DNA of 24,838 nt from a virus: positions 1-24,838 of IMG/VR virus record IMGVR_UViG_3300034104_001144; one strand, 5' to 3'. The notes below the pieces were generated by a model. That model did not search any database, was not told where the DNA came from, and worked only from the letters and a program-made list of their open reading frames with translations. This document shows positions 3,473 to 24,838 of the stretch, piece by piece (positions within the stretch are counted from its first letter, which is position 1; every line of letters begins with the position of its first letter). A program made the translations under genes and the position numbers.

Positions 3473-6400
3473 ATGAATAAGTTATTACAACATATTATAG
3501 ATGCTGGTGATGTAGATCACAAAGTTCTTCCTGGATTACAGAAAATGCAAAAGGGTAGTTATCAAGAAGAACTTCCTAAAGCTCAATGGGGAAGTTTTGT
3601 AAACCCTGTTACTATAGCTGGTGCTGCAACTCTTTTTGCAAAAGCTAAAGAATTTTTTGGTTTTGATGAACCTAAGATTGTTAGAACACCAGCATCAGCT
3701 CCTAAAAGATTAAGCATACGTGATCCTAGAAAAATCATGATGACTACTGGTAAACCACTTAGACCTAACTCAGATTTGGTTACTGGTGAGTATGATTCTG
3801 AGCACTTAGGTAATTTATTAACAGAGGCTAAGAGACGTAACATGTCTTATAATGATATGATGAATCTTGCTGCTATGGGTTTTCAAGAAACTAAGTGGGG
3901 AAGATCAGATGATAATATAGGACATACAAAAGGTGATTTTGGTGATGAACCAATGCAAGATACTTATTCAAACTTTATCAATGCTTATAATGCTAAGATG
4001 AAAGATGCTGATAGGTTGAAGATTAAAGATGAGGCTACACGTTTACAAGTATATAATGGTTTAGGTAAAGTATTTCCTTCTACAGAAGCAGATTATCATG
4101 GCTTCAAAATGAAGAAGATATATGGAGTAGAAGTTCCTAAAGGAGGTATAGATTTAAGAAAGAATCCTCTTTATGGTAAACAGGTTATGGATATAAGAGA
4201 TAATGTACTTAAACGTAATCCTGAGTTTATGAGATATATGGATAGTACATATAGAGCTCCTATACCTAAAGAAGAAGAGTTTGCTAATGGTGGCTTATTT
4301 AAAGTGTTTGCTCAAGAGGGTTTAGAATATAAAGGACCAAGTATTGTAGATTACTTAGCTACTAAAGGATACTCTGGTAACAAAGCATTTAGAAAAGAAC
4401 TTGCTGAAAAGTACGGTATAGAAGGTTATAATTTCTCAGCTGCTAAGAATACAGAACTTCTTAATAGACTACGTGAGAATGATGACTTGTTAGAACAAAA
4501 CTATCAACCAACTCAGGCTGCTATACCTGTAGAAAGAATGATGGAGATGGAAAGTCAGGCTAGAGCTGCAAGACAAGCTGCTGCTCAAAGTGCTCCTCAA
4601 CAACCAGCTCAACGACCTGTTAATCCTGGTAACTATTATACTTATAGTCCTGATTATGGGGATATGAGAATACCTCAACCAAAGATAAATACATCACTAC
4701 AACCTAAAGTGAAGTATGATAAGTTTTCTTTATCACCTCAGATGGTAATTCCTTTACCATTTGGATTTGGTAAACAGACTCCTAGTGAAATACCTAATAG
4801 TGAAATTACAGATCCTGTTCGTAATGTTTCTGCAAAACCAAAAGTAAATCTTCCTCAGTATAATCCTTTTGTAAAACCAGTTGCTAAACCAGAACTAGGT
4901 CCTTTTAATAGTGAAAGGTATAATGATGTGCAAGAAGTAGATCCTGTAAATCAACAAGGAGCTCCTGAATTTTTATTTAATAGTGAAAAGTTATTTAACA
5001 GTTTTAATAGACCTAAACAAAAGCCATTACTACCTGTAGTAATACCAGCTAAGAAACCAGTTGTTAAAACTGAAAAGTATACTAAACCTGAAGTAGAAGA
5101 ACTACCGTGGTATGAGGAAGCAGCAAATGCTGTAACAAACACTTTAAAAGGTTTCTATGATGACTTTGCAGAATCTGTAGAAAAGAGTCCTTTTGATTTT
5201 AGAGGTATGAACTTTGGTACTCCAGTTTCTCCACAAGGAGCTACTGAGATGACAAGAGACTTAACTAAAAGAGGATTAAGTTTGTTTTCTCCAGACATGG
5301 CTGAAAAGTATAATAACTGGCTAAACCGTCAACAGGCTATAAAAAATATGGATAAAGATCCAGTTAGTAAAATTGTAGTTCCTGATTTTGACTATGCTCC
5401 TATGTATATAACAGGAGATACTATTCCAGATGCTGGTGGTCGTCAATATCATATACCAGAAAGCATGGATCTTAATGCTTTAAAATTTGGAGTACGTAAT
5501 AGAGGAGACTTTACCCCTATAGATACAGAAGCAGCTTCTATTACAGCATTCCATCCTTTTGTAGATTCTAAATTATATTTTACTCAAATTGCAGATGATC
5601 CTGCTAATGCTACTTATTTAGGAATTACACCAGATGGTCAAGTACAAGTTGGTGGACGCAAAGATGTTGAAAATAAAGATATAAAAATAACTCGTGTATT
5701 TTCTAATAAAGTAGTAGACTTTATTAAAGACCCAACAGGAGGTATTAAAAAAGTTCCTGCTGGAGCTAAGGTTAACAAGAATGCTTTTTCACCAGCTGTT
5801 ACTGTTATAGGTGATGATGGTAAACAAAAAGAAGGTAAGCTTAACTTAGTAGTACCACAAGGAACAAAAGCAGATGATGCATTTGGTGTAGCAACAGGTG
5901 GTCGTTTTATATTCCAAACACCTGATGGACAAAGTCGTTTAGTAAGTGGATCTTTAAGTAATATAGAACAAGAGTTTAAACGTATTAAAGGAAAGAATCC
6001 TTATGTTACTGTAATAAGTTTAGATAATGGTTCTTTTTCTCGTGGTCTCCGTACTTTTGATAAAAGACTTACTTCTGTTGATTTAAGATCATATGATAAT
6101 TTAAATTCAGGTGGTGGTAACTTTGCTTACTTACTACCTAATCAACAAACCAGTAGACCTTTAGCTAAGTTTGATGAGTTTGAAAAAGAAGCTACAAAAA
6201 GACTTCAAGCATTATATCCTGGTAAGAAAGTTAGTGTTGAATATCAAGATACTGGTCTTTATAATCAAACAGGTGGGCGTGATATTCAGACTCAAGCTGA
6301 TATACAGAAAAAAGGTAACTCTCAAACTCCAGTATCTCTTCATAATTTTAATGCTGCTAGAGACTATGTACTTTATGTAGATGGTAAACCTATAAGTGGT

Positions 6401-9088: not shown

Positions 9089-9092
9089 AGAT

Positions 9093-10214
9093 ATGTATTA
9101 TCAACAAGGTGGTCAACAGGATCAAATTATGCAGATTATTCAGGCTTATGCTCAGATGAATCAGATTGATCCTAAGCAGTTATTAGAGCAGTTTACTCAG
9201 ATGGCTCCTGAACAACAGAAAGAAGCTATTATGCAAATGGCTCAAAGTATTCAACAAGGTGCTTCTCAGCAACAACCTGATATGGCTCAAGCTGCTATGG
9301 CTTACGGTGGATATACAACAGGTATCTTTGCAGGTGGTGGAGAAATGATCCGTAGAGCTGATGGTTCTTATTCTAAAAGAGGATTATGGGATAACATTCG
9401 TGCTAATAAAGGATCTGGTAAGAAGCCTACTAAGCAAATGTTAGAACAAGAGAAGAAAATTCGTAGACAAGAAGCAGCTTATGGCGGTGTGTTTGGAAAT
9501 GGTGGTACTAACAATGCTGGCTTTGACGCATTGCCAGACTATGTACAAGCTAAGATTTTAAGAAACATGGGTTATGGTGGTTACTATGATCCAATGGAAT
9601 TAATGGCAGATGGTGGTGAACCTAATGGTGAAATGGCATTAGGACAAATGTCTTCTGTAGCTGATAAGATGAATAAACTACGTGAGTTTATTTCTCCAGA
9701 ACAAAACTTAGATCCATGGATTGCTTCTAAGTTAGCTGTTATGGATTATTCAGCTGATGCTATTTCTGACTACATGATGTATAATCCTGAAGCTCAGGAT
9801 GAAGAGATGGAAATGGAAGAGATGGAAATGAAAAAAGGTGGTTCAACATTTAGTGGTAATGCTTGGTATAAAAACGGTGGAACAAATAATCCAGGCTTTA
9901 GAGCTCTACCTGAATTTGTACAAAATCAAATACTTTCTAACATGGCGTATGGTGGTATACAATTAGATCCAGCTAAGAGAGGAACATTTAAAGCTCAAGC
10001 CACTCGTATGGGTATGGGTGTACAAGAAGCAGCATCTGCAATACTTAATGCACCAGAAGGAAGATACAGTCCAGCTATGAGAAAAAAAGCTAACTTTGCT
10101 AAGAACTTTGCTAAGCAAATGGGTGGTTTAGTAGAAGGTGATATACTTGATGTTACACCAGAACAGTTACAGATGTTAAAACAAGGTGGTTATAACTTTG
10201 AAATTATTGACTAA
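9093..10214 (+). CDS. Small Gln/Met/Gly-rich modular virion protein with internal duplication
   Basis: 373 residues, no Cys, no enzymatic motif seen. The N-terminus is Gln- and Met-rich and helical (about 1-65). A basic module follows at about 90-120 with RGLWDNIRANKGSGKKPTK, a short block I recognise from many phage and giant-virus proteins. Two copies of a 28-residue element start at residues 136 and 261 (NGGTNN, then a GF-ALP core, ending YGG). An acidic Met/Glu tract lies between them. A second recurrent module at about 297-340 includes GTFKAQATRMG and KKANFAKNFAKQ. The C-terminus EGDILDVTPEQLQML resembles the end of the next protein. At least ten x-GG motifs punctuate it. It sits between two lysin genes and its TAA overlaps the next ATG, so the two are probably translationally coupled. 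I infer a virion-packed adaptor or nucleic-acid-binding protein; the function is unknown. Confidence 0.6.
   Translation: MYYQQGGQQDQIMQIIQAYAQMNQIDPKQLLEQFTQMAPEQQKEAIMQMAQSIQQGASQQQPDMAQAAMAYGGYTTGIFAGGGEMIRRADGSYSKRGLWDNIRANKGSGKKPTKQMLEQEKKIRRQEAAYGGVFGNGGTNNAGFDALPDYVQAKILRNMGYGGYYDPMELMADGGEPNGEMALGQMSSVADKMNKLREFISPEQNLDPWIASKLAVMDYSADAISDYMMYNPEAQDEEMEMEEMEMKKGGSTFSGNAWYKNGGTNNPGFRALPEFVQNQILSNMAYGGIQLDPAKRGTFKAQATRMGMGVQEAASAILNAPEGRYSPAMRKKANFAKNFAKQMGGLVEGDILDVTPEQLQMLKQGGYNFEIID
9498..9581 (+). repeat. Copy A of the 28-residue internal protein repeat
   Basis: Encodes NGGTNNAGFDALPDYVQAKI and eight further residues ending YGG. It matches copy B at 9873-9956 at 20 of 28 residues, counted by eye. 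The DNA has diverged more at third positions, so the duplication is old and kept at protein level. Confidence 0.8.
9804..9833 (+). repeat. Two 15-base tandem units coding an acidic Met/Glu tract
   Basis: GAGATGGAAATGGAA is followed by GAGATGGAAATGAAA, 14 of 15 bases alike. In frame this gives EMEMEEMEMK, a strongly acidic helix-forming tract in the small modular protein. A recent slippage duplication is likely. Confidence 0.8.
9873..9956 (+). repeat. Copy B of the 28-residue internal protein repeat
   Basis: Encodes NGGTNNPGFRALPEFVQNQI and eight further residues ending YGG, the partner of copy A at 9498-9581. It is followed directly by the GTFKAQATRMG basic module, whereas copy A is preceded by the other basic module, so repeats and modules alternate along the protein. 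Confidence 0.8.
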
Positions 10215-10216
10215 TG
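10212..10216 (+). promoter_or_regulatory. TAATG stop-start overlap
   Basis: The TAA of the 373-residue gene shares its last A with the ATG of the 613-residue gene. No Shine-Dalgarno-like site precedes the ATG, so reinitiation by the terminating ribosome is the likely route. Confidence 0.6.
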
Positions 10217-12055
10217 AGAATACGTATTACAGGAAAAGGTTTACCTAAAGCTCAACTTGCTGGTCAACAGCCTGTTAGAAACAGTGTGTCTATTAATGGA
10301 ACTACTTATTTTGAAGGAGATCCTGGTTATGAAAAAGCTAAACAAGATGCTGCTATGATGAAGCAGCAAAATTCTGCTTTTAATAATCTTGTTAACTCTC
10401 GTATTAAACCAGGTATTGAAAATGCTATAACTGATGTTAAAAACTTTGCTTCTAATAAGTTTCCAAAGTTAAATTTTAAACCACTTGGTCAAGCACCTAT
10501 ACAACCTGCAGCTGCACCAAATAATACTCCAGCTGTTACAACAAACTCAGCTACTCAGATTTTACCTGCAGCAGCTTCTGCTTTTCCTTTTATACCTAAC
10601 CAAGGCTTTTCAAGTAGTGCTTTTTCATTAGGTAAATCTGGTTTACCACCTTTACCAAAGGTAACGACTGTTAATGCTGATGGTACTACCACTACTACAG
10701 GTGATTTTGGAAATCCTATTAGACAATACTCAACAGATCCTAATAGTGGTGGTGGGGATGCTAATCCTTTATTACAACCTACTTCATCAAATCCAGTTAG
10801 TTGGTACAGTAAAAATATTGGTGACCCTGTAGAAAAAGCATTTGAAAGTATAGATAAGTTAACATCATGGGGAAACTTTGGTACTGAACTTGTTAACAGT
10901 TATAAAAGAAAACAAGACTTTGATAAAAGGCTAAGACGTCAAACATCTACAGATTCTTTATTCCCTGAAGTACCTAGTGAGATGTCAGGTAATCGTGGAG
11001 ATTATGTAGTTAGTGGAAGTAGATTTGGTGAGTTTAGACCTGATGAGTATGTTGTAAACAAAGGTATGTACACTGGTCAGTTCTTACCTAGAATGGCACA
11101 ATATGGTGGAGGAGTAATTCCTGAAGAACTTGTTATGCCTGTAGATCCTATTGAACTATCGGCACCAATGCCGTATGCAACATCTGCTCCTGCAGAATCT
11201 AGTCCTGCTCCAGCACCAAGATCTTCAAGTGGAGCTAATCCAGTTGCTGAACAAACATGGGAAGAAGTTTCTACACAGTTTCCAGGTGTTAAGCATTTAG
11301 GTATATGGGGAGATAAAAGACATCAGAAAACTAAGAGTGATCATAACACTGGAGATGCTTTAGATATTGGTATTACGGATCTTAATCAGGGTACAGAGAT
11401 TGCCCAGAAACTTATTAAAGAAGCCCAAGATAAAAACATTAGTTATATTATATGGAACAAGCAGATATGGAATCCATCTGTATCTAATTCTTGGAGACCT
11501 TATAATGGAGATAATCCTCATACTAGTCATGTTCACGTAAGCTTTAATAGATCATCTCAGCCTGCTGCAGGAGAAATTGCTTTAACTCATAACAATCCTT
11601 TAAACATACATCATGGAGACTTTACTTCTAAATATGGTGGTAAACAAGGATCTAGAGATTCTAATGGATACGTTAGTATGTTTCCAGATTTTGAAACAGG
11701 TATAAGAGCAGCTAAAGATCTTTTGTTTGGTCCAAACTATTCTAATCTTACTATATCTCAAGCTAGAAATAAATGGGTAAGTGGTAGTCCAGATAAAACT
11801 AATGCATCTACTCCAGATATTGTAAAAGCTATGGGTACAAATAAAGTACTAGCAGACCTTAGTCCAGCAGAACGTGACAAACTAATAAAACAGTTTGCAA
11901 GATGGGAAGGTAAACAAGCATACCAAAAACTAAGTGGCATGCAGTTATACGCTGATGGTGGATCTGTATCTTATACAGAAGGTGATGTTTATGAACTAAC
12001 AGAGGATGAAATTAAGTCTATACTTTCTTCAGGTGGAGATGTAGAATTTTTATAA
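10214..12055 (+). CDS. Second virion-associated wall-degrading protein: M15-like peptidase plus lysozyme-like domain
   Basis: 613 residues, no Cys. It begins with a basic strand and LPKAQLAG (10-17), the same motif as near the start of the 1871-residue protein. Residues about 70-350 are low-complexity (Pro, Ala, Ser, Thr), a likely flexible spacer, with a DYVVSG-FRPDEYVV block near 265-280. The peptidase domain (about 350-445) has SDHNTGDALD (His377, Asp384) and HTSHVHVS (His436, His439, His441), the ligand pattern of VanY/M15-like zinc peptidases. Residues about 454-590 (Glu454, NNPLNIHHGDF, FPDFETGIRAAKDLL) resemble the lysozyme-like domains of phage structural lysins. The C-terminal tail (582-613) resembles the end of the preceding protein. 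It probably cleaves both glycan and peptide of peptidoglycan at infection, acting from the virion. A lysis endolysin is possible, but no holin is visible and the gene lies among virion genes. Confidence 0.7.
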   Translation: MRIRITGKGLPKAQLAGQQPVRNSVSINGTTYFEGDPGYEKAKQDAAMMKQQNSAFNNLVNSRIKPGIENAITDVKNFASNKFPKLNFKPLGQAPIQPAAAPNNTPAVTTNSATQILPAAASAFPFIPNQGFSSSAFSLGKSGLPPLPKVTTVNADGTTTTTGDFGNPIRQYSTDPNSGGGDANPLLQPTSSNPVSWYSKNIGDPVEKAFESIDKLTSWGNFGTELVNSYKRKQDFDKRLRRQTSTDSLFPEVPSEMSGNRGDYVVSGSRFGEFRPDEYVVNKGMYTGQFLPRMAQYGGGVIPEELVMPVDPIELSAPMPYATSAPAESSPAPAPRSSSGANPVAEQTWEEVSTQFPGVKHLGIWGDKRHQKTKSDHNTGDALDIGITDLNQGTEIAQKLIKEAQDKNISYIIWNKQIWNPSVSNSWRPYNGDNPHTSHVHVSFNRSSQPAAGEIALTHNNPLNIHHGDFTSKYGGKQGSRDSNGYVSMFPDFETGIRAAKDLLFGPNYSNLTISQARNKWVSGSPDKTNASTPDIVKAMGTNKVLADLSPAERDKLIKQFARWEGKQAYQKLSGMQLYADGGSVSYTEGDVYELTEDEIKSILSSGGDVEFL

Positions 12056-12060: not shown

Positions 12061-12074
12061 TAATATACTATAAT

Positions 12075-14006
12075 ATGAAAACGTATAAAGTAAGAATTAG
12101 GAAATCTCCAGAGTCTATGGCTTATGGTGGTCAATCAAATTATGGATTAGATCTAGGTCAGAAGAATATATATTCTGATATGACAGATAATCCATATGAG
12201 TCAGTATCTAACACTCTACAACCTGTAGATAGAGAAGAAGCTAATATTGAAGCTGAGCTTGGTGAAACAGCATACGGAGACTTTAACAATGATGGTCGTA
12301 AAGAACATATGAAGATTGGTGGTGAAAGACACACCAATGGTGGTACACCACTAAATGTTCCAGAAGGTACATTTATTTATTCTGATACTAAGAAGTTAAG
12401 AATTGGTGGTCCTGTACTTGCAAAGTTTGGTAAGTCAGAAAATACTAAACAGAAATTTACTCCAGCTCAACTAGCTAAACAGTATGATATTAATAAGTAT
12501 CAAGCTATCCTTGATGATCCATATACTGATAAAATGGCTAAGTCTACTGCTGCTCGTATGATTGATAACTATGAGAAAAAACTTGGTGGCCTTGCTTTAG
12601 TACAAGAGTCTATGAAAGGATTTCCTCAAGGTATTCCTGATGTAGCTAAGTCTGTATTACCAGAAGGTATGGGACAACAACTTGCTGAGATGGGAGGTTT
12701 TTATGGTGATGATCAAGATTATTATCAAGGTGGTGGTCAAAATGATATTCCAAAAATTAATAAAAATCAGATAGCTCAGAAAGAAAAAGAAGGTTTTAAA
12801 AGGATTCCTGGTACTAATATATGGGAAAAGAAAGGTCAAACTATTGAGGTTAGAGATGCTATAAAAGGTACTCCTGGAACACAACCAGTTACTAAAACTA
12901 TCCCAGGTAAAAAATATGTACCAAATCCAAATGCTTGGTGGAACAGTCTTACACCAGAACAAAAAGCTGCTCATAATAAAAAAGTTCGTGAAAGAATTGC
13001 TAAAGATCCAGAGTATCAACCTAAAATAGAAATAGTTACTCCTGGAACTAAAGGAACACCAGATACTTGTGAACCAGGATTTGCAATAAATCCAGCTACA
13101 GGTAAATGTGAAAAGATCATTCCTAATTTAGAAAGGTTTACTTATGAAGAAACTCCTACTACCACTACTACTATAACTACTGGTGGTGGTGGAGGCGGTA
13201 GACGTCCTTACTTTGGTAAGCAGTTTATGGTTCCTCCTAAACGTTACACTCCTTATGCTGCTCCTCTTAATGCTATGATTCCAGAACCTACGTTCTATGA
13301 TCCTAATAGAGAGTTAGCTGAAGGTGCATCTAATCGTAACATGATGGCAGCTTATATGTCTCAAATGGATCCTCAGCAGTTTTCTGCTAGAGCTAATGCA
13401 TTAAATGCACAAGGAGCTGAGCAAGCAGCTAACACTATTGGTAAATATCAAAACATGAATGTTGGTGTAGCTAATCAGTTTAGTCCTTTACAAACAGATA
13501 TTATGAATAAGGTGATGGCTTATAGAGCAGACGCTGCTGATAAGTTAGCGTTCAATGCTCAGCAAGAAGATAAAGCTTATCGTAATACCATGAGAAACTA
13601 TCTTAAAGCTCAAGATATGTATGATATTAATGAGTATGATAGAGCAACTAAACAAGGTATGCTTAATCAGACTAATCCATATTATTCTATAGAAGATGGT
13701 CGAGGAGGTGCAACTCTTAAGTGGAAAGATAAAACTAACTGGATGAATATGGTTACTGGTCAATCTCCTCAGTTGGATACTAAAGGATTACAAGATGTAG
13801 AACGTTATGCACTTGAATTAAAAAATGCTGGGCATGATGCAGCTACTGTTACTCAACTAATGAGAATGAAATATCCTAATGCTTTTCAATCTAGTAGAGG
13901 TGCTAATAATGCTGCAGCTATTAATGCTCAGTATATGAGTATGAATAGAGCACCAATGGCTCAAAGTGCATACCCATTTGGATATGATGATGGATATGAT
14001 TATTAA
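12075..14006 (+). CDS. Conserved crAss-like virion/cargo protein
   Basis: 643 residues. The N-terminal block (about 50-200) is one I recognise as conserved in crAss-like phages: EANIEAELGE, DFNNDGRKE (69-77, reading like a calcium-binding EF-hand-type loop), GGERHTNGGTPLNVPEGTF, QYDINKYQAIL and GGLALVQESMKGFPQGIP. The middle (about 225-375) is low-complexity and ends in Thr-rich and six-Gly runs. It holds a mini-loop with Cys332 and Cys345 (CEPGF then TGKC), the only cysteines in the six downstream proteins and a plausible disulfide. The C-terminal half (about 400-600) is helical and Asn/Gln/Ala-rich, with ASNRNMMAAYM and DPQQFSARANALN. It ends in a Tyr/Asp-rich tail. It follows the second lysin gene by 19 bases with no Shine-Dalgarno site. 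A structural or ejected cargo role is inferred from family and position; no enzyme motif was seen. Confidence 0.65.
   Translation: MKTYKVRIRKSPESMAYGGQSNYGLDLGQKNIYSDMTDNPYESVSNTLQPVDREEANIEAELGETAYGDFNNDGRKEHMKIGGERHTNGGTPLNVPEGTFIYSDTKKLRIGGPVLAKFGKSENTKQKFTPAQLAKQYDINKYQAILDDPYTDKMAKSTAARMIDNYEKKLGGLALVQESMKGFPQGIPDVAKSVLPEGMGQQLAEMGGFYGDDQDYYQGGGQNDIPKINKNQIAQKEKEGFKRIPGTNIWEKKGQTIEVRDAIKGTPGTQPVTKTIPGKKYVPNPNAWWNSLTPEQKAAHNKKVRERIAKDPEYQPKIEIVTPGTKGTPDTCEPGFAINPATGKCEKIIPNLERFTYEETPTTTTTITTGGGGGGRRPYFGKQFMVPPKRYTPYAAPLNAMIPEPTFYDPNRELAEGASNRNMMAAYMSQMDPQQFSARANALNAQGAEQAANTIGKYQNMNVGVANQFSPLQTDIMNKVMAYRADAADKLAFNAQQEDKAYRNTMRNYLKAQDMYDINEYDRATKQGMLNQTNPYYSIEDGRGGATLKWKDKTNWMNMVTGQSPQLDTKGLQDVERYALELKNAGHDAATVTQLMRMKYPNAFQSSRGANNAAAINAQYMSMNRAPMAQSAYPFGYDDGYDY
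13158..13199 (+). repeat. ACT/GGT low-complexity run
   Basis: ACT-rich then GGT-rich codons encode a Thr run followed by six Gly (residues about 362-375). It marks a flexible hinge between the two halves of the 643-residue cargo protein. Confidence 0.75.
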
Positions 14007-14009
14007 ACT

Positions 14010-14035: not shown

Positions 14036-14064
14036 GATTTTATTGTATATTATATATGTAAACT

Positions 14065-17000
14065 ATGGCACAATACCTTCCTTATATTCCAGAAACCATA
14101 CCTGAACCGGCTTTATACAAACCGGACTTTAACTTCTTTGATAGAATGCTTCAAAGAAAGCAGTCTATGTTTGAACAAGGTCTTAGTAGAGTTAGATCAG
14201 CGTATAGTTCTGTACTCAATGCTCCACTTTCTAATAAGAATAATATACCTCTTAGAGATCAGTATATTAAAAATGCTCAGGAACAGTTAACTAAATTATC
14301 TTCTTCTGATCTTTCTCTTATGGAAAACGTAAATGCAGCTGAGTCAATCTATGCTCCGTTTTGGCAAGATAAGTTTATAGTACAAGATGCTGCTATGACT
14401 AAAGCTTACCAAAGTGAAATGCAAAAGCTTATGTCATGGAGAGATTCACCTAAACTTGAAGAGCGTGAAAAGTATAATGCTATTTCAATGATGGATCTTC
14501 AAAATGGTTTAAGTGTATTGCAAAATGCTGATAGAACCCCTGAAGCGTTTGGAGCTGTAGAAATGCGTAAAGCTGAGCCGTTTACAAACATTGAAGCTTA
14601 CTTACACAAGATGGCTACGGCTGAAAAGCTTGAAGTTAAATATGATGATCCTAATGGACCATATTTAGTAGAGACTGTTAATGGCCAACGTTCTGAAAAG
14701 AAGTATGCTGTATGGGCTGCTTCTAAGATTGGTAATAACTTTCAGGGTCAGTTTGATGTAATAGGTAGAGTAGAAAATGAAGAACGTATTAAGATATTAA
14801 AACGTAACAATCCTAATCTTACTGATCAAGAGGTTAAAGGAATTATTGCTAAAGATGTAGTATCAGAACTTAATCAGGGATATACTAAAAGAACTCAAGA
14901 AGCAGATGTTGAGATTGCTAGAATAGATAGTTTATTAGGATCTATTGGACAAGCAAATGATCCTCAACATGAGCAGATGTTTAAAAAACTTAAACTAGAA
15001 CGTGATGAACTTGTAGCTAGAAAAGCTTCTATTAATCAAGAGTATACATACTTTGATCAAGGTAAAGATAAAGTTTTAAACTATGTTACTAGTGCTCCTA
15101 AACAATACTTTAGTGTACTAGCTAAACAACGTCTTATTAATAACTTTGCTATTGGTATGGCAAGTATTGATCAAAAAATTATAAAAGAAAATACTGGGTT
15201 CACTGCTGCTCAAAACTATGAGCTTGAAAAAGCTAAGTTTAATTTGTCTGTAACAAAAGCTGAACGGGATTATGAGCAACAAATATGGGAGAGAATGAAT
15301 CCTAAAACTACAGGAACTGGTACAGGAACTGGTACAGGAACTGGTAGCGATCCAAATAACCCTGTAGTTCCTGGTATTGATCCAACTGGGTCTATTATAT
15401 ATGCTGGAAAGTCTGGTACTTCAATTGAAAGAACAGCTGCTCAAGTAATGGATATCTTTAATAAGCATCAAGAAGAAAGATTTACAAATGGTCATAATTT
15501 ATTATTTACACAAGATGGTCTTCTAGGTCTTACTAAAAACTTAGGATTAACTCCAGGTGAAATAGCAGATATAGCTACTGCTTTTCAAAGTGAAATAGCT
15601 ACTAAATATGAACATAAGTTTACTAATGATCAAGCTAAAGCATCCAATAAATTAACAGATAAGTTACTTGCTGATCCAGCTGTTAAAGCAGCAGGTATCA
15701 CTAAAATTACTGGACCAGGTACAATGAAGAACGCTCTTATTGCGTATTCAACAGACCATTTTGCAACTAAGATTAAAAATAATATTCCTTTTACTGAGGA
15801 TGAAAAGTCAGCACAGAAGAGTATGATTGCTGCTGTTAGAAACTTAGAGGTATATAATGCTTTAGAAGGACAAAGAAAAGAATTAATTAAAACTAACTTA
15901 TTAAGTAACAAGAACCTAAGCCACCTTGCTGTTGATCGTGGCGGTGGTCAAAAAGATTTAGTTAGTATTAGTGATCTTGAAAAAAAGTTTAAAGCTACTA
16001 AGTTTGAAGATGAAGATGGTAAACAAGTAACATTATCAGCTAAAGAATTAGCTACTGCTTATATATCAGGAAACCTTAGTGAATATAGACCTAGTGGTTG
16101 GCAAGCAGCTGGTTTAAGAAACTCAACTAGTTTTTATACTGGACAAACTGTAAAGATTGATGGAAAAGAATATAGTTCTTATGGTTTATATACACCAATG
16201 ATGGGTGTAGGTCCAGATAGAAAAGATTATCCGATTGGATTAGAAACATTAAAAAATACGGTAACAGAGTTAGATAAGGTATATGGCTCCTCTAAAAAAA
16301 TCTCTACAGATTTGGTTGCTGCTAATACCAGTATTGTTCCTAACTTGTTAGATTATAAAAATCTTACGGGAGTCCAAAGTAAAGAGTTTAAATTAAACTT
16401 TAAGTCAAATGCAACAATGGCTAACGGTGATAATGCCGCTCTTGCTGTTTATCAAGGTACACAACCAGGTAATGTAAATGAAGTTTATGGTGCAGATGGT
16501 CAAGTAGTTCCTGATACTCATATCTTAGCTATTAATACGTTGTTAAAGAATGAAAAAAATATAGAAGAGTATGTTACAGCAGAATATCTTCCTGATGCTA
16601 AAAACGGTAGAACTTTAAGAATTACTCTTAGTAAAGTTAGAGATGATGAAGGAAAAGATGGAAAAATTGCAGATGTTCCTATTTCTGAATTAAAAACTCA
16701 GTATAACTTTGTCCTTAAAGAAGGTACAGGAACATACTTAGATGATCTATATAAAAGTGCAAGTTATCAAATTTTTCAAAGTATAGTTAGAGGTGAAGAA
16801 TTTACAACAGATCCTATGTTAGAAGCTGCTGGATTTAAAGGTACAATCACCCCTAACGTTAAAGGGCCAGGTTCTAATCCTACATTTGTAACAGTAACTA
16901 CAAACTATAAAGAGAGGATTAATGAAATAGATAAAAATACTGGACAATTTGTTTCATATTTAAAGGACAAATCTGATAGTTTTAAACTAAATTTGGTAGG

Positions 17001-17190
17001 AGATACTGCTAAGTCCCCAGATGAAATTGTTAGTAGTTTATATGATGGTCTTTACCGTCAGTTAGATCAAAACCATAAACTAGAAGAACAGTATGATCTG
17101 TATCTTGAAAAAATGAAAAAAGCTGGTTCAAATACTTGGGATGCAAAAGAAGCTTTAAGAGCAGCTGGATTATCTCATTTGATTAAGTAA
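14065..17190 (+). CDS. Conserved crAss-like virion/cargo protein, 1041 residues
   Basis: 1041 residues, no Cys, largely helical and charged. The first about 160 residues look like a block found next to the giant polymerase gene in crAss-like phages: FNFFDRMLQRKQSMFEQGL, YSSVLNAPLSNKNN, DLSLMENVNAAESIYAPFW. Helical segments rich in Lys/Glu continue to about residue 405. A TG-dipeptide linker (416-427) then separates an N-terminal half from a C-terminal half containing short beta-type stretches (for example near 690-720 and 850-880). No catalytic motif, signal peptide or membrane segment was seen. The ATG at 14065 follows a 58-base gap holding a hairpin; the leader TATATATGTAAACT has no Shine-Dalgarno site. 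The giant gene begins 22 bases downstream. I infer a protein packed with the RNA polymerase polyprotein and ejected with it; the biochemical role is unknown. Confidence 0.6.
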   Translation: MAQYLPYIPETIPEPALYKPDFNFFDRMLQRKQSMFEQGLSRVRSAYSSVLNAPLSNKNNIPLRDQYIKNAQEQLTKLSSSDLSLMENVNAAESIYAPFWQDKFIVQDAAMTKAYQSEMQKLMSWRDSPKLEEREKYNAISMMDLQNGLSVLQNADRTPEAFGAVEMRKAEPFTNIEAYLHKMATAEKLEVKYDDPNGPYLVETVNGQRSEKKYAVWAASKIGNNFQGQFDVIGRVENEERIKILKRNNPNLTDQEVKGIIAKDVVSELNQGYTKRTQEADVEIARIDSLLGSIGQANDPQHEQMFKKLKLERDELVARKASINQEYTYFDQGKDKVLNYVTSAPKQYFSVLAKQRLINNFAIGMASIDQKIIKENTGFTAAQNYELEKAKFNLSVTKAERDYEQQIWERMNPKTTGTGTGTGTGTGSDPNNPVVPGIDPTGSIIYAGKSGTSIERTAAQVMDIFNKHQEERFTNGHNLLFTQDGLLGLTKNLGLTPGEIADIATAFQSEIATKYEHKFTNDQAKASNKLTDKLLADPAVKAAGITKITGPGTMKNALIAYSTDHFATKIKNNIPFTEDEKSAQKSMIAAVRNLEVYNALEGQRKELIKTNLLSNKNLSHLAVDRGGGQKDLVSISDLEKKFKATKFEDEDGKQVTLSAKELATAYISGNLSEYRPSGWQAAGLRNSTSFYTGQTVKIDGKEYSSYGLYTPMMGVGPDRKDYPIGLETLKNTVTELDKVYGSSKKISTDLVAANTSIVPNLLDYKNLTGVQSKEFKLNFKSNATMANGDNAALAVYQGTQPGNVNEVYGADGQVVPDTHILAINTLLKNEKNIEEYVTAEYLPDAKNGRTLRITLSKVRDDEGKDGKIADVPISELKTQYNFVLKEGTGTYLDDLYKSASYQIFQSIVRGEEFTTDPMLEAAGFKGTITPNVKGPGSNPTFVTVTTNYKERINEIDKNTGQFVSYLKDKSDSFKLNLVGDTAKSPDEIVSSLYDGLYRQLDQNHKLEEQYDLYLEKMKKAGSNTWDAKEALRAAGLSHLIK
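15310..15345 (+). repeat. Three perfect 12-base tandem repeats (ACAGGAACTGGT)
   Basis: Three exact consecutive copies encode (TG)6, residues 416-427 of the 1041-residue protein. Perfect conservation including third positions suggests recent expansion, so copy number may vary between related phages. It acts as a flexible interdomain linker. Confidence 0.9.
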
Positions 17191-17212
17191 GTAACTATAT
17201 AAAGACATATAC

Positions 17213-20200
17213 ATGGCATTAGAAACTGGTGTAATACCTCAAGAACTTCAAGGAGTTTATTCACAAGATCCATATCTTCCATTACCAGAACCTATACAAC
17301 CTAGTATGTTGGATCTAATAGGAACTGGTGGTGGGATGTCTACTAACTATGCTCCTACTACTCCTAGTAGAAATGCTATGCAAAGTTTTTTTGATGACTT
17401 TAGCAGAACTCCTGCTAGCATGACTACTTTATCTACACCTGTATATTTTGATTATGATGCAGCTCAAGTAGATAGATATAAGAGTTCAGATATGTTTAAC
17501 GCATTAGGATTTGATCCATCAGGTCAAGTTAATAATGAATTTAGATATGGAGCTAGACAAACCTGGGGAGACATTTGGTCTAATGGTCTAAATGGTATGT
17601 TTAGGCTAGCAGGTAACACTTATATTGAAGGATGGAAAGGTTGGGGTAATTTAATTGATGCTATAGGAAGTACTAGTTGGGATGAAGCTAAACAAGATCT
17701 TATTGGTACTCCAGAGTATCTATTAGAGCAGGATAAGATTACTAAAGATATCATGAATAAATATGCTATCTATTCTACTCCTGAATCTGAAGAAGGTATA
17801 TTTAACCGTCAGTTTTTTGGTAACATGTTACAGCAATCAGGTTTTGCTGTAGGTGCCATTGGTCAATTCTTATCAGAAGAACTACTTACATGGGGTTTAT
17901 CTACTCAGTTTTCAGTAGCTAAGCTTGGCCTTAGACTACCTGCTATATTTGGTAAGGTGGTTACTAAAGCTGACATTGCTAAAGATCTTACTAGTCTTGG
18001 TAGCCCTATTTGGAAATCTCGTTCTGTAGCAGAAGGTTTAGTACAAGGTGCTAGAAAGTTTGTACCTTTTGCAGATACTGTATATGATCTAAATAGATAT
18101 GGTAAAGCCGGAGCTGGTCTTGGTCAGATGGCAGCTATTGGTGTAGGTGGTGTAAGACGTGTTCTATCTGAATCTAACATGGCTTTAACAGAAGCTCGCA
18201 TGGAAGCTGCTGGTACATATGCTGAATTATATAATAAGTTATATGATGAAGAACTTCGTAGAACAGGACAAGCTCCTAGTTTTGAAGTAGAAGAAAGAAT
18301 TAAAGCTTCTGCAATGGCTGGTGCTCAGGATAACTTAGGTGTTAACTATGGTATCTTGATGCTAAGCAATAGACTTCAATTTGATAATATATTTTCTAAG
18401 TTTGGAACAAGCCGTGCTATTTTTGGTACTACAGGAGAGTTTGCAAATGATGTACTAAAAGTTACAGGTAAACGTGTTGGTGCAGAAACTGCAGAAGAAA
18501 CAACTAAACTATATGCAAAAGGTAAACTAGGAACATTAGGTTTACTAGGTCAAGTGTCTAAAGACTTTGGCGGTAAAGCAGCTGCATGGCAAGCAACTAA
18601 GTCTCTTGGTAAGAATGTATTTAAATGGGAAGCTAGTGAAGGTTTACAAGAACTATTTCAAGAAGGTTCTAATATAGCTTTACAAGATTATTATTATGAC
18701 TTGTACCATGGTTATAAAGGTACAAGTATGGATAAGTCAATAGATAAAGCTATTGAGTCTCAAGCTAATATCCAAGGTTTAAAGACATTCTTAATGGGTG
18801 CTTTAACGGGACGTATGTTATCTCCTATTAATTTTACTGTAGGTAAAGTAAAAGAGTTTGCTGGTACAACTTCTGATCAAAGAGCTGCTCGTTATAAAAA
18901 TATAAACGAAGCTGTAAAAGAAGTAAATGCTTTCTATGAAAACCCTAATAAGTTTTTAGGTGAGCATATTGCTAATATAAAAGTACAGAATAAGGTTGCT
19001 ACCAACATGCAAGAAGCTGTTGCTAACAGAGATCAGTATGTATTTAACAACAACAAGAACTCTGGTTTTGCTAAGATGATATCTTCTGCTATTAAGACAG
19101 ACATGACCGGTGCTGTACTTGATACATTACGTGGTTATGGAGAGACGTTTAATGAAGAAGACTTTAAAGAAGCTTTTGGTCTAGATATGACCACTGAGAA
19201 TATTAAGTCTACAAAAGAGTTCTTTAATAATATTGCTAATGAGGTAGAGACCTTCCATAAAAACTGGAAAGCTCTTAAAGATAAATATGGTGATTCTGTT
19301 CTACTTGATATGTATGAAGAGGGTACACCAGAACGTAGAACAGCTTTAATTGCTAAGCGTGCATTAGATGATGCTATTGAGATAATGGCTACTAATGATT
19401 ACAAGGCTCACAAGGCTGCCCAGCGTGCTGTACAACTACAAACAGAAATGGCATCTGTTCCTCAAATAGGTGCATCTGTAGGTAGTGCTTTCCGTAATCT
19501 AGGTGTTCTTCAAAACACACAGAAGGAAATAGATATTCTTAGAGCTGAGGTAGAAAATCTTACTGCCCAACCTAAGAAAGATGCTGCTTCAAGAGAACTT
19601 CTTAAGTCTAAGAAAGAACAACTTGAGTCTTTAGAAAACTGGAAAGAGCAGTATGAGAATCTTAAAACTATGGAGCCTGGTCAAAAACGTAAGTTTAACA
19701 AGGCTGCTAAAGTATTTGAAAGATATGTTAACGCTAAGAATAGAGAGTCAGGTATTGATACTACAATAAAAGCGGATGACGTTCAGGAAATATATAAGAA
19801 TCTTACAGAGTATATTGATCTTAACAATGATGTTAAAGACTATGTAGATGCTTATAACATTATGGCTAACCCTATACAGTTTGTAAAGGTACATCAGAGA
19901 TTAATGGAATCTATTGATGCTACTGGTAAGAAACTTTTAGAAGAACACATTAAAGAAGTTGAGAATATACTTGCCGGTAAACCTCCTGTAGAGAAAAAAG
20001 ATCCATTAGCACCTGGGGAAGTTATTGAAGACAAACCTAATGGTTTACCAGATAATGCTAAAGTTTTAGATAGTAAAAATGGAATTTATCTTATAGAAGA
20101 ATCAGATGATGCATCTGAGAAATTTTACTACATTGTTAATAAAGATGGTGATCCTGTTGTAGATGTAAAGCTAGATGATAAAATGTTCCCTGGTTGGGAA

Positions 20201-23200
20201 CCTTCTAACCTTTATACCATTGAAGATGCTAGAATTTATTTTGATGCTTTAGTAGAAGTTAATGCTGATAAGTATAAAGAGTATCAGTTTGATGGTCAAA
20301 CATTAAAGTATGGTGACATTCTTGTAGATTCTAAAGGTAGAAAGTATAGAGTAACTACTCAAAAGCAGCCTACAAATGTACAAGGTAAACTTAAAATTTT
20401 TATAGTACCATTAGAAGGTTCTATTAGAACTGAAGGTATACAAAATCTTAATGGATTTAAACTTGAAAAAGCTTTTGAATCTGCCTTATTACCTGAGAAC
20501 CCAGATGCATTTAGACTAAAAAGAGTTAATGAAGTTAACCGTATTTATCCTAAAGTAAATAAAGATCAGGGTGAAACTCCAGAACAAGCTAAAGAAAGAC
20601 TAAAACAGTTTATTCATAGTACACCTAAACAAGATTTTCTGTCTGGAGTTACAATTAAAGTAACTAGAAATACTCAGCTTGGACAAACTAGTTTAGCAGG
20701 AACAGAAGGAATAGATCAGAATAAGCATTTACAAATGAACCCAGAACCATACATGGTAGAAATCATGTATGCTGGGGAGACTATTGGTTTTGCTACTTAT
20801 TATAATAGATATACATATTTAGATAATGCTGGTAAACCTATTGCTCTTAATAATATTACTAAAGAACAATTTGTACAAATCTTTGACTCTAGTAAAAAAG
20901 ATGTTACTGATGAGCTTAAAAGATTTAAAGAGAACTATAACTCTGGTCAAGCTTTTTTTACTGCTGTAACTAATAAGCTTCCTGAAGGATCTAATGAAGT
21001 TGTTTTAACAAATGATGAAGTAAATACTTTATTTAATGTTGCTCCTTCGGCAGGAGAGTATGATTTTGCTACTGATAGGGATATTAGAGTTTCTTTTGAT
21101 GAGTTAGACTATAGTACAATTAATGACTTTACTTATATTATTGACCAAAGAACTAGATATCTTGGTAATGGTATGTATGAAGAAGATACACGTGTTCATA
21201 CAGATACTATTGGTGATACTACAGAATTAGAAAAAAGAATTAATGATGCTAGATATGAAGGTGGTGAAGATAAGATTAGAAACTATGGACGTTATGTAGG
21301 TGTAGTAGAATTACCTAACGGTTCTATTAAATTTATTGAGTTACAAAGTAGTCCTGTTGCTTCTGAACAGTTAGATGCTCTTGTTGAGAAAATAAACAAC
21401 AAGTCTAAAGAGCTTAAAGAAAATAACACTGAGGAAAAAACAGATGCAAAAACTAAAAAGAAATATTTAGGTGCAATAAATCCTATAGCAGCTAATAATA
21501 TTAATACAGAGATTAATGACTCTATTTATATTACTGTTGCAGGAAAACGTGGTTATACAGTTAGTTTAGAAGTAAAACCAACTGGAGATATTAAAGTTGA
21601 GTTTTCTACGTATATAAAAGGAAGTACTAATAAAGATAAACAAAGTATTACTATACAAGAATCTGCTGATGCTTCTAAACCTTTACAGTTAAAAAATTCT
21701 ACTGATCTAATTGAAAGGATTAACCGTGCTATAGACGATCATAACCAGACTAATTTTAAAAAGATAAATGTAAAGTTAGATAAGAATAGTTTTAAAAACT
21801 CTATAGCTGATAATGCTGAAGTAAAAGAGTATCGTCAATTGATATCTGGTGTTAACAAACCTGTTGTTAAGAATGAGGGTATATATGTTTATGCCAAAAA
21901 GAACCAGCAGTCACACTCTAGTAACGTTCTTAATCCTGTTATTAAGTCCAAACAAGTAGCTGAGGAACCTTCTGAAAGTGCACTAGAAGGAGTAGTTGTT
22001 CCACCAAAAATTGCTGCAGCACAAGCTGAGTTTTTAGCTCAACGTAAAGCAGAACAACAAAAACTTAGTATACAAGATAAATTACAAGAGCTTAATGATA
22101 AGAAAGATGCTTTAATCAACGAGATAGAAGGAGAACTTCTTAAGTCTGGTATGAAGAGAGTTGATGTGATGAAGTATAATTATAATGCAGATCCACGTAT
22201 TCAAGCTATCAATCAAGAGATTGCTCAGATTAATGATAGTGCTGCTCTTAAAATATCTAATAAACTTACAGCTCAAGATTCTGTAAATATTAACACTTTT
22301 AGAAAGTGGGTTCAACAACATCTACCAGCCTTTATCTCTGTAGAAGAGTTAAAGAATATGGCTCGTAGAATGAAGACTGAAGGTATGACTGTTGGTATGT
22401 TCTATACTCATATGAATGAGTTAAACAACCAACTTGAAGGTAAGATTGCTGTAGGTAAGAATACTCCTTTTAAATATCATGAAGCTTTTCACGCTGTATT
22501 CCGTATGTTACTTACTGATCAACAGATTGATAAGTACTTAAATATAGCTAAACAAGAACTTCGTCAACAAGGTAAGAGTATTGCTAAGCTTAAGCAAGAA
22601 CTACTTGCCTCTAAACCAGAGTTTTATTCTAAGCTTACGGAAGAACAATTAGAAGAACGTGTTTATGAAGAGTATTTAGCTGATAAGTTTGACGCATGGA
22701 AGTCTGATATTAAAACACCAACCTCTTCTGAAAATAAGAGTTTCTTTAGATGGCTTATAGATTTTGTTAAAAATTTCTTTAAGAGCCTTAAGTCTTCTCC
22801 TTTAGAAGATTTATTCCAGTCTATTGAAAAAGGTGATTATAAAAACTCTAGTTTAGTTAAGAATAGGTTTACTGCAGGACCTAATATTGCTGTTTCACAA
22901 ACTGCATTAAAGGCTATACAAATAGGATTTACTGTCATAGATAATGAAGATGGTGAGAGAGAACGTATTCCTATATACTTAAGTCAACAAGAAGGAGATG
23001 TATTAGCCTCTACTATTGCTGCTGTATATCATAGACGTATGTCTGAAGCAGGTTTATCTACCCATAACGAAGATGTTATGGATGGCGTTCTTGCTGACTA
23101 TGCAAACCTATATGATAGAAGAATCAATCCATACTATGAGTCAGATGAGTTCTATGAAAGATATGATAGTGCATTAGCTGCTAATAAAGCTATTGAAAAA

Positions 23201-24838
23201 TTAGATCAGAAGTACAAAATATTTAGTAACAAAGAGTTGTTAGAGACTCTTAAGTCATCTATTCGTGAGCATACACGTATCATGGGTTATCAAATGCAGT
23301 CAGAAAGTGATGCTTTTGATGACAATGTAGATAGTTATGGTGATAGAGTTACTACTGATAATCATAAAGAAACATATAGCATTGGTGGTTATGGCTCTTT
23401 ATCTGAAGAACTACGTCAGTATTTGGCTACTATTGTAGAAGAAACAGCTGATGAGTTTGGTAATACTAGATTTGTATCTGAAGAAGGTTCTCCTACTGAA
23501 GAAGCTTTAATTGAAGCTGTTAATGCTAACGTTCTTTATAACGGTATTCTTAAAGCAGTAGCTGGATCTACTGATCAGTTTCAGATGCTAGATAGATTAA
23601 GAATTTTTGCTGAGCATAATCCTGAAGCTAGAAAGTTCTGGTCTAAGTTTTCTAATGATGTTGATCTTCAATATGACGAGAATGGAAACTTTGTAGACAT
23701 TGGTAATAAAAACCAAGCTAATCTATTCCAGGCTGTTATTAAAGGTTTCAATCAGTATTCTGTTGACTACTACTTTATTAATAAGGATATTAGTAAAAGA
23801 GATTCTAGGATTAGTGAAGCTAACCGTAAAGGTGCTGCTAGAAACCAGTTTTCTATTTGGTATAATGCTTTTATAAGATTATACAGAGATCAGTATGATA
23901 ATACACCTAGAGATATAGATAGTCTAACTAAGTTTATTAATACTAAAACAGCTCCTTTAAATAGACTTGCTACAATTTTAAAGAAAGGTAATACCTATAA
24001 AGCTGATATTGTTAATACTGAAATAGATAGTATTGTTCTTTTACTAAAGAATGAGCTAGGTATTTCTTTGTCTCCTTTATTTGTTAAGTATAGTTACTTA
24101 TCAACTGTTGATACTAAGGATCTTACAGATGATGAATTAAGAATACTTAAAGCATTTGAAGGTACAGATGTTATGACTGAAGAAGATGCTAGAGAAATAG
24201 CATCTATTCTTAAGAGTGGTAAAGATCCATTTGGTAGTAACATTGATCCAGACAAGATTGCAGAATCTGAACAGCAAGTAAGTGCTTTGATTGATGCAGA
24301 GAAGTCTACACCTATAAGTGAGGAAGAGTTTGAAGAGCAGGATCAAGATGTTGAAGATGATATAGATTCTGCTGTAGGTCGTTTAACAAGAATTGCTGCT
24401 GGTAACTCTGTATTTGATGAGCAAGTATCTTCTACATCATATAAGAATGCAGAGGGTGAGCTTGTATATTCTCATCAGCTACCTACATTTAACTTAGTAA
24501 GAGCTGCTGAATTACAAAGTGAAAACTTCCGTAACACCCTTAAAAAAGATAAATTCTTAGCTACCAACCATTTACTAAATAGTCCTTTCTTTAATTATAT
24601 AGCTGACACACTTAAGATTGCTCGTATAGATGGTGTTAAATCTTCAAGTCTTACTAAGAATGAAGATGGTTCATTAACAGAAGATAAGCGTCTTAACGTA
24701 AACCAAAATGATGGTATTACTTTTGGTAGTATGACTGACCGTGAGTTTTTAATCAGTTTGTTTGAGTTGTATGCTAATAATAAAAAGCATGTTATTCCTC
24801 CTACTGAGGGGGAACCTCGTAGAGAGTTCATGACTTCT
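17213..24838 (+). CDS. Giant virion polyprotein with zincin motif, probable N-terminal part of the virion RNA polymerase protein (3' partial)
   Basis: Reading from the ATG at 17213 (first ATG after an in-frame TAA at 17192) to the last base gives 2542 codons with no stop and no Cys. The N-terminal about 550 residues hold amphipathic or hydrophobic blocks (near 203-250, 300-318, 523-545) and phrases such as EASEGLQELFQE and SNMALTEARME, typical of giant crAss-like virion proteins. Coiled coils are likely at about 770-820 and 1600-1646. HEAFH (1756-1760) with EEYLAD (1819-1824) about 60 residues on is a zincin metalloprotease pattern. An acidic linker lies at about 2368-2388. In crAss-like phages the virion RNA polymerase lies in giant proteins at this genome position. 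No DxDGD polymerase signature appears in the visible part, so that assignment is inferred and would depend on sequence past the window end. It may be a separate giant cargo protein instead. Confidence 0.7.
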   Translation, partial: MALETGVIPQELQGVYSQDPYLPLPEPIQPSMLDLIGTGGGMSTNYAPTTPSRNAMQSFFDDFSRTPASMTTLSTPVYFDYDAAQVDRYKSSDMFNALGFDPSGQVNNEFRYGARQTWGDIWSNGLNGMFRLAGNTYIEGWKGWGNLIDAIGSTSWDEAKQDLIGTPEYLLEQDKITKDIMNKYAIYSTPESEEGIFNRQFFGNMLQQSGFAVGAIGQFLSEELLTWGLSTQFSVAKLGLRLPAIFGKVVTKADIAKDLTSLGSPIWKSRSVAEGLVQGARKFVPFADTVYDLNRYGKAGAGLGQMAAIGVGGVRRVLSESNMALTEARMEAAGTYAELYNKLYDEELRRTGQAPSFEVEERIKASAMAGAQDNLGVNYGILMLSNRLQFDNIFSKFGTSRAIFGTTGEFANDVLKVTGKRVGAETAEETTKLYAKGKLGTLGLLGQVSKDFGGKAAAWQATKSLGKNVFKWEASEGLQELFQEGSNIALQDYYYDLYHGYKGTSMDKSIDKAIESQANIQGLKTFLMGALTGRMLSPINFTVGKVKEFAGTTSDQRAARYKNINEAVKEVNAFYENPNKFLGEHIANIKVQNKVATNMQEAVANRDQYVFNNNKNSGFAKMISSAIKTDMTGAVLDTLRGYGETFNEEDFKEAFGLDMTTENIKSTKEFFNNIANEVETFHKNWKALKDKYGDSVLLDMYEEGTPERRTALIAKRALDDAIEIMATNDYKAHKAAQRAVQLQTEMASVPQIGASVGSAFRNLGVLQNTQKEIDILRAEVENLTAQPKKDAASRELLKSKKEQLESLENWKEQYENLKTMEPGQKRKFNKAAKVFERYVNAKNRESGIDTTIKADDVQEIYKNLTEYIDLNNDVKDYVDAYNIMANPIQFVKVHQRLMESIDATGKKLLEEHIKEVENILAGKPPVEKKDPLAPGEVIEDKPNGLPDNAKVLDSKNGIYLIEESDDASEKFYYIVNKDGDPVVDVKLDDKMFPGWEPSNLYTIEDARIYFDALVEVNADKYKEYQFDGQTLKYGDILVDSKGRKYRVTTQKQPTNVQGKLKIFIVPLEGSIRTEGIQNLNGFKLEKAFESALLPENPDAFRLKRVNEVNRIYPKVNKDQGETPEQAKERLKQFIHSTPKQDFLSGVTIKVTRNTQLGQTSLAGTEGIDQNKHLQMNPEPYMVEIMYAGETIGFATYYNRYTYLDNAGKPIALNNITKEQFVQIFDSSKKDVTDELKRFKENYNSGQAFFTAVTNKLPEGSNEVVLTNDEVNTLFNVAPSAGEYDFATDRDIRVSFDELDYSTINDFTYIIDQRTRYLGNGMYEEDTRVHTDTIGDTTELEKRINDARYEGGEDKIRNYGRYVGVVELPNGSIKFIELQSSPVASEQLDALVEKINNKSKELKENNTEEKTDAKTKKKYLGAINPIAANNINTEINDSIYITVAGKRGYTVSLEVKPTGDIKVEFSTYIKGSTNKDKQSITIQESADASKPLQLKNSTDLIERINRAIDDHNQTNFKKINVKLDKNSFKNSIADNAEVKEYRQLISGVNKPVVKNEGIYVYAKKNQQSHSSNVLNPVIKSKQVAEEPSESALEGVVVPPKIAAAQAEFLAQRKAEQQKLSIQDKLQELNDKKDALINEIEGELLKSGMKRVDVMKYNYNADPRIQAINQEIAQINDSAALKISNKLTAQDSVNINTFRKWVQQHLPAFISVEELKNMARRMKTEGMTVGMFYTHMNELNNQLEGKIAVGKNTPFKYHEAFHAVFRMLLTDQQIDKYLNIAKQELRQQGKSIAKLKQELLASKPEFYSKLTEEQLEERVYEEYLADKFDAWKSDIKTPTSSENKSFFRWLIDFVKNFFKSLKSSPLEDLFQSIEKGDYKNSSLVKNRFTAGPNIAVSQTALKAIQIGFTVIDNEDGERERIPIYLSQQEGDVLASTIAAVYHRRMSEAGLSTHNEDVMDGVLADYANLYDRRINPYYESDEFYERYDSALAANKAIEKLDQKYKIFSNKELLETLKSSIREHTRIMGYQMQSESDAFDDNVDSYGDRVTTDNHKETYSIGGYGSLSEELRQYLATIVEETADEFGNTRFVSEEGSPTEEALIEAVNANVLYNGILKAVAGSTDQFQMLDRLRIFAEHNPEARKFWSKFSNDVDLQYDENGNFVDIGNKNQANLFQAVIKGFNQYSVDYYFINKDISKRDSRISEANRKGAARNQFSIWYNAFIRLYRDQYDNTPRDIDSLTKFINTKTAPLNRLATILKKGNTYKADIVNTEIDSIVLLLKNELGISLSPLFVKYSYLSTVDTKDLTDDELRILKAFEGTDVMTEEDAREIASILKSGKDPFGSNIDPDKIAESEQQVSALIDAEKSTPISEEEFEEQDQDVEDDIDSAVGRLTRIAAGNSVFDEQVSSTSYKNAEGELVYSHQLPTFNLVRAAELQSENFRNTLKKDKFLATNHLLNSPFFNYIADTLKIARIDGVKSSSLTKNEDGSLTEDKRLNVNQNDGITFGSMTDREFLISLFELYANNKKHVIPPTEGEPRREFMTS

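Follow-up and report, generated by a model that had tools for sequence, protein, structure and literature searches.

The giant virion RNA polymerases of crass-type phages are built from chains whose interiors are nearly free of cysteine and which carry a cysteine at exactly those ends that face the next chain. This end-cysteine rule emerged from the analysis of a 24,838-base stretch of viral DNA (the window) and its relatives; we regard it as a valuable result that we did not meet in the literature covered, our search having returned no paper that combines crAssphage with terminal cysteine. The best explanation, which we hold to be probable, is that the window belongs to a cargo block purged of interior cysteine, in which the facing-end cysteines act as interchain disulfide couplers of one covalent thread. 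In its full form, to which we give even weight, the multi-chain RNA polymerase would be injected as one disulfide-joined thread and undone by the host cytoplasm, with fusion and coupling being interchangeable and repeatedly switched. Whether phage ejection proteins are unfolded in transit, in which order they pass and in how many threads are long-open questions. The sequence hints at an answer in physical terms, in which marked ends link the proteins into a single chain.

Gene content of the window

Seven abutting open reading frames (ORFs) on the + strand fill the window (Table 1; ORF calling), whose last base is the end of the virus record. The first gene matches PHROGs 37948 (6e-55) and 15100 (virion structural) and, by tblastn, the csAssE-Sib protein annotated 'Muzzle protein' and structural proteins of phi17:2 and Lbo-JY46; its direct BLASTP match to phiCrAss001 gp44 is marginal (E 0.021). 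Residues 285-364 of gene 2 form a cell-wall peptidase-like domain (PHROG 2307, L-alanyl-D-glutamate peptidase, 2e-10). Homologues of gene 6 in four relatives share 53-59% identity with it and have 0 Cys in each. Gene 7 is cut by the window end, and its C-terminus and partner gene lie beyond. In three relatives that are 75-78% identical over the visible part, the complete gene encodes 4,512-4,545 residues and carries the catalytic motif GADFDIDK at 3298/3313, a signature common to phiCrAss001 gp50 and phi14:2 gp66; the GxDFDxDK motif of the giant virion RNA polymerase thus falls outside the window, and its assignment to gene 7 goes through these relatives.

Table 1. Genes of the window and the only cysteine codons of its six cargo-type proteins
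Feature	Coordinates	Strand	Basis and remarks
Gene 1, muzzle-type virion protein	2..3469	+	5' end cut by window; 7 Cys/1155; internal control
Gene 2, cargo-type protein, 1871 aa, 0 Cys	3473..9088	+	ORF, Cys count
Gene 3, cargo-type protein, 373 aa, 0 Cys	9093..10214	+	ORF, Cys count
Gene 4, cargo-type protein, 613 aa, 0 Cys	10214..12055	+	ORF; G003/G004 homologues likewise 0 Cys
Gene 5, cargo-type protein, 643 aa, 2 Cys as a short-range pair	12075..14006	+	ORF; context CEPGFAINPATGKC
Codons Cys332 to Cys345 of gene 5	13068..13109	+	Sole Cys of the six proteins; 12-residue loop
Gene 6, cargo-type protein, 1041 aa, 0 Cys, directly 5' of the polymerase	14065..17190	+	ORF, Cys count
Gene 7, fused giant virion RNA polymerase (gp47+gp50 type), first 2,542 residues	17213..24838	+	0 visible Cys

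Because of the matches of genes 1 and 2 and the catalytic motif in the relatives of gene 7, the window is predicted to be the ejected-cargo block of a crass-type phage, with muzzle, small cargo and polymerase in the order seen in phiCrAss001. The position of the muzzle-type gene directly 5' of the putative cargo genes is itself a mark of the crass type. Homologues of this cargo have been detected inside the virions of phiCrAss001 and phi14:2 by mass spectrometry; the window virus itself is uncultured.

Cysteine depletion in the cargo block

An initial annotation of the window had pointed to near-total cysteine depletion in the six consecutive proteins that follow the muzzle-type protein, and its counts are exact for all seven genes (Table 1). 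The six proteins hold 2 Cys in 7,088 residues, against 95.5 expected from the positional base frequencies of each gene (Poisson P 1.5e-38) and, as that annotation had also calculated, 43 at the rate of gene 1 (P 2e-16), where Cys stands at residues 85, 481, 508, 696, 803, 966 and 1010. Its argument that AT-richness is not the cause is borne out, because other reading frames are rich in TGY (for example, gene 2 has 112 and gene 7 has 194 in the third frame); base composition is rejected as a cause by this and by the expectation from positional base frequencies. The giant protein lacks Cys in its visible part, as had been claimed, but the three complete relatives have a single Cys (4508/4542), 3-4 residues from the C-terminus. 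Such terminal cysteines, which tell the most, were out of sight of the initial annotation, as the giant gene runs past the window end. The contrast that it drew holds between cargo and muzzle but not between virion and non-virion proteins, since the 131-kb relative G003 also has fibre-like proteins (1206, 897, 834 and 764 aa) and a capsid-like protein (539 aa) with 0 Cys. The observation is thus confirmed and its interpretation is partly right, whereas its generality was overstated.

The cysteines that remain in non-polymerase cargo are mostly short-range, in C-x-x-G-[FY]..C loops and CxxC..CxxC ribbons. The pair in gene 5 is of the loop type C-x-x-G-[FY]-x(8)-C (CEPGFAINPATGKC), and a similar short pair is present in relatives G003, G004 and G038. 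The gene 2 homologue in G004 contains a CxxC..CxxC insert at 1814-1836, and the 476-aa homologue of gene 3 in G003 a short Cys pair at 298/314. Elsewhere in G003 (110530-116544), small fibre-region proteins have terminal Cys (..VVDC, ..LIPC, ..QQGCC, MSCGC..) and are perhaps interlinked on the virion surface.

Cysteines at the facing ends of polymerase chains

Polymerase loci were collected by a catalytic-motif scan of viral contigs, the motif pattern being chosen since a single-protein scan with phiCrAss001 gp50 gave only near copies. We read 46 contigs, covering 20 kb upstream and 15 kb downstream of the locus unless the contig was too short; eleven further genomes (nine named ones and the relatives G003 and G004) bring the total to 57 genomes and 76 candidate junctions, which were set by motif position and gene adjacency, independently of Cys. 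At all 74 true junctions, a Cys lies within the last 10 residues of the upstream chain and another within the first 10 of the downstream chain. Its position is narrow, at -1/-2/-3 of the C-terminus in 62/74 and at residues 3-5 of the N-terminus in 70/74. In phiCrAss001, for example, gp47 ends ..LRCNS, gp50 runs from MSKRC.. to ..KICGANTLYEL and gp49 begins MAKKC.. (gp47 C2339, gp50 C5 and C2404, gp49 C5), and the chain ends of phi14:2 read TIC / MACK..QECK / MSCK. In the window family, the giant ends GC(E/K).. and the next gene begins MACK in the relatives, including G003 and G004, in which the rule is seen; the junction of the window virus itself is past the window end.

Candidate junctions were rejected in G033, where a fused giant follows a small cargo gene, and in G043, where the polymerase is fully fused. 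An apparent exception in G028 comes from a fused gene that has an intron-like break, that in crAss002 gp33 reflects an over-extended annotated start (M33-S-C35), and the last chain of csAssE-Sib starts with MTSTC, frameshifted into the annotated ORF. The record of csAssE-Sib (L253:35086-41488) thus gives a wrong start for its last structural protein, whose gene is interrupted by a frameshift.

Outer ends are bare: Cys occurs at 0/53 outer C-termini and 1/45 outer N-termini, the sole case (G044) being a contig whose truncation removed the upstream gene. Control ORFs have a Cys at 14/164 N-termini and 24/164 C-termini (9-15%; Fisher 1e-47 and 7e-41). The interiors of the polymerase trains (gp47-gp50-gp49 in phiCrAss001 terms) hold 75 Cys in 274,757 residues, compared with 11.2/1000 in downstream ORFs. 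A prediction fixed beforehand held at 5/5 held-out junctions in phi17:2, Lbo-JY46 and csAssE-Sib, whose short middle chains have Cys at both ends and whose chains are identified as polymerase by position and annotation, the catalytic-motif pattern being unmatched there. Two further junctions, in cr7_1 and cr52_1, obey the rule (2/2), for a grand total of 81.

Alignments at 11-38% identity single out the same residues. The sole invariant column at the upstream C-terminus (alignment A2) is the terminal Cys, and the only invariant columns at the downstream N-terminus (A1) are M1 and the coupler Cys; A2 is the cleaner test, as the rows of A1 were preselected for a Cys in the first 8 residues. The junction codons are 108 TGT and 17 TGC. 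Furthermore, the pair is kept in phiCrAss001, DAC15 and cr116_1, where gp47 is on the opposite strand, and therefore acts at the protein level; these opposite-strand pairs and the use of both Cys codons lead us to reject a junction signal based on DNA or on translational coupling. G019, G031 and cr7_1 keep the end pair despite many interior Cys, so that coupling needs no purge, and the couplers are for this reason under a separate, stronger constraint than the purge.

Split and fused forms

Fusions of gp47 and gp50 into one gene have no Cys at the N-terminus, and the single 5,331-aa chain of G043, in which all three are fused, has 0 Cys. The break points vary by lineage; counted from the catalytic motif, they lie at about -1270 to -1470, -2183 and -278. 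At least seven changes between split and fused states fall on a quick tree with several long branches, on which state was coded by N-terminal Cys, in agreement with gene structure wherever checkable.

The G019 polymerase (L198/L199, ORF 14199-22694) has 23 Cys, and its N-terminal residues 284-475 share 45% identity with the C-terminal region of the cr109_1 giant, which has the look of a permutation or duplication. The gp49-like last chain carries polyvalent-protein and nuclease domains, such as ART-PolyVal (2e-7) in L066, PD-(D/E)XK in L044, and Kinase-PolyVal (2e-31) with a histidine phosphatase in L103. Judged by these domain matches, injected effectors seem to be joined to the polymerase train.

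Ejected and other proteins across phages

In phiCrAss001, the cargo identified by mass spectrometry consists of gp45, gp46, gp47, gp49 and gp50, the muzzle serves as gatekeeper, and the ejection model includes partial unfolding (PMC10172136). The check proposed in the initial annotation comes out as it foresaw in this phage, with 7 Cys in the 7,478 residues of proven cargo, compared with 10/1371 in the muzzle, 8/762 in TerL, 12/706 in PolI, 17/858 in RNR and mostly about 15-20 per 1000 in replication enzymes. The cargo of phi14:2 is similarly depleted. The ejected proteins of other phages are equally poor in Cys: N4 gp50/51/52 (0/4,294), T7 gp14-16 (1/2,261), P22 gp7/16/20 (0/1,309) and the lambda tape measure (0/853). 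Related enzymes that are not ejected have ordinary Cys contents (N4 RNAPII 13/673, T7 RNAP 12/883). Since T7, P22 and N4 show the purge without couplers, passage alone suffices to select against Cys. In T7 (L011), the ejected gp14 and gp6.7 (27728-28318, 18864-19130) each have a lone Cys2, possibly another end-cysteine pair.

The purge has clear limits. In phiKZ, gp80, 149, 178 and 180, the virion RNA polymerase subunits and head proteins according to annotation, have 16 Cys in 2,614 residues (6.1/1000), against 9.5/1000 in four non-virion RNA polymerase proteins of the same phage. A purge universal across phages is rejected by this polymerase, and a purge specific to cargo by the fibre, scaffold and capsid proteins that can be Cys-free, including the scaffolds of P22 (0/303) and T7 (0/307). 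Because the phiKZ polymerase has Cys and many non-cargo structural proteins lack it, a low Cys content is not required for ejection, nor does it suffice as a mark of it.

The absence of Cys from N4-type virion RNA polymerase has been published, with passage through the tail or the oxidising periplasm suggested as its reason (PMC2784036, PMC3715699, PMC3915230), and the idea that Cys hinders passage is thus not new for that polymerase. Cysteine is unmentioned in the ejection-protein review and the N4 polymerase structure preprint covered by our literature check. Our comparison extends the remark on N4 to a wider constraint, to which there are known exceptions. The polymerase chains also differ in interior Cys between ten gut crassviruses (70/59,084, 1.18/1000) and phi14:2, phi17:2, Fpv1 and Lbo-JY46 (1/19,883, 0.05/1000), whose hosts are Cellulophaga, Flavobacterium and Leptolyngbya. 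This difference between phages of gut and aerobic hosts, with lineage uncontrolled, may fit a redox component or oxygen exposure.

A proposed disulfide-coupled thread and its alternatives

We infer the following chain of events, of which unfolded passage, disulfide formation and reduction on arrival are candidate chemistry. Cargo chains would pass the portal, the tail and the host envelope at least partly unfolded, as is also the case in the published phiCrAss001 model of partial unfolding during ejection (PMC10172136). A disulfide between interior residues, once it arose in the released virion or the envelope, would loop the chain, and interior Cys would be selected against because such a looped chain would jam or misfold in transit. 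Within the train, Cys would be kept exactly at the ends facing the next chain, where, once the virion is oxidised, the C-terminal and N-terminal residues may pair through a disulfide between chains; a total of about 4,300-7,800 residues in two or three giant chains could then travel as one covalent thread. The host cytoplasm would reduce the bond, releasing the chains to fold into the polymerase. Interior Cys would do harm in two ways, since it could close loops in the thread and could pair wrongly with the couplers. A covalent end link would be superfluous in a folded complex and useful for unfolded chains in a narrow tail.

The phiCrAss001 virion does contain disulfides, namely in the proteins of its tail hub, ring and portal vertex (PMC10172136). 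AlphaFold models of both chain ends have low confidence overall, and a fold search with the N-terminal model returned nothing significant. The Bacteroides cytoplasm is reducing, and the bond would therefore have to form after assembly or lysis. The unpurged cargo of phiKZ speaks against this explanation, as do G019, G031 and cr7_1, in which the pair stands alongside many interior Cys. To our knowledge, nothing like covalent end-to-end threading is known for any ejected or translocated protein set.

The end cysteines might instead belong to a joint of the folded polymerase, each supplying half of a metal site (Zn or Fe-S) or of a docking contact. Such a joint would hold chain ends where a fused homologue has a peptide bond, and the purge would be a separate matter. 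For the gp49-like chain, a compact module is predicted in the first 88 residues, with Cys3 just before its first strand (pLDDT 84-95), and the pair is kept in genomes with a relaxed purge, both of which suit such a joint. However, one Cys per end provides two ligands and Zn needs four, A1 and A2 show no conserved partner column of Cys or His, and a folded complex would have no need of a residue so close to the very end (-1 to -3), so that we regard this reading as unlikely. It is distinctly improbable that the purge chiefly prevents mispairing of couplers, rather than being due to unfolded passage. Although interior Cys is lowest in coupler-bearing trains (0.12/1000 excluding G019 and G031), the ejected proteins of T7, P22 and N4 are just as purged without facing couplers, the fully fused G043 has neither coupler nor Cys, and the non-train cargo of the window is purged too.

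Low Cys could also be a by-product of fold and composition in long helical, disordered or repetitive virion proteins, ejected or not, as the Cys-free scaffolds of P22 and T7 and the fibre-like and capsid-like proteins of G003 would suggest. We consider this improbable, given that paired enzymes differ (N4 virion RNA polymerase 0/3500, N4 RNAPII 13/673), that the purge in the trains extends to catalytic polymerase, nuclease and kinase domains, and that the confinement of Cys to facing ends would be left unexplained. The general rule of the initial annotation, by which the ejected cargo of any phage is recognisable from its Cys frequency alone, as a search-free predictor, is true for phiCrAss001, phi14:2, N4, T7, P22 and the lambda tape measure; it breaks down for the phiKZ virion polymerase, for the many Cys-free scaffold, fibre and capsid proteins, and for gut crassviruses, in which interior Cys reaches 3.3/1000 in the relaxed cargo of cr7_1. 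As a universal statement it is highly improbable.

Comparison with known systems

The disulfide-coupled thread would concern some of the most abundant human gut viruses along with phages of marine and freshwater bacteria, and the end-cysteine rule offers a simple means to find and order injected polymerase members in uncultured phages. The cyanobacterial Leptolyngbya phage Lbo-JY46 (L252) has a crass-type muzzle and cargo block with an end-cysteine junction, which takes the crass-type module beyond Bacteroidota hosts.

T7 gp14/15/16 and P22 gp7/16/20 are ejected ahead of the DNA and are almost Cys-free, as is the cargo of the window, but their sequences are unrelated to it and they have no chain-junction couplers. 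The N4-type (Schitoviridae) virion RNA polymerase likewise is a giant ejected polymerase without Cys; unlike that of the window family, it is a single 3,500-aa chain without junctions or end cysteines, and its T7-type fold differs from the double-psi-barrel DFDID type. The window gave no T7-type or N4 family match in Pfam or PHROGs and its relatives carry DFDIDK, which sets its polymerase apart from the T7-like single-subunit N4 type of about 3,500 aa.

The structure of the phi14:2 virion RNA polymerase gp66 (PDB 6vr4) is the single PDB sequence match of phiCrAss001 gp50; gp66 starts MACK and ends ..QECK, and 6vr4 represents this middle chain in isolation. The phiCrAss001 paper reports disulfides in tail and portal-vertex proteins only and leaves cargo Cys unmentioned (PMC10172136). 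With gp45/46/47/49/50 of that phage, the window family shares the gene order after the muzzle, the polymerase motif, the Cys purge and the junction cysteines, and it differs in having gp47 and gp50 fused.
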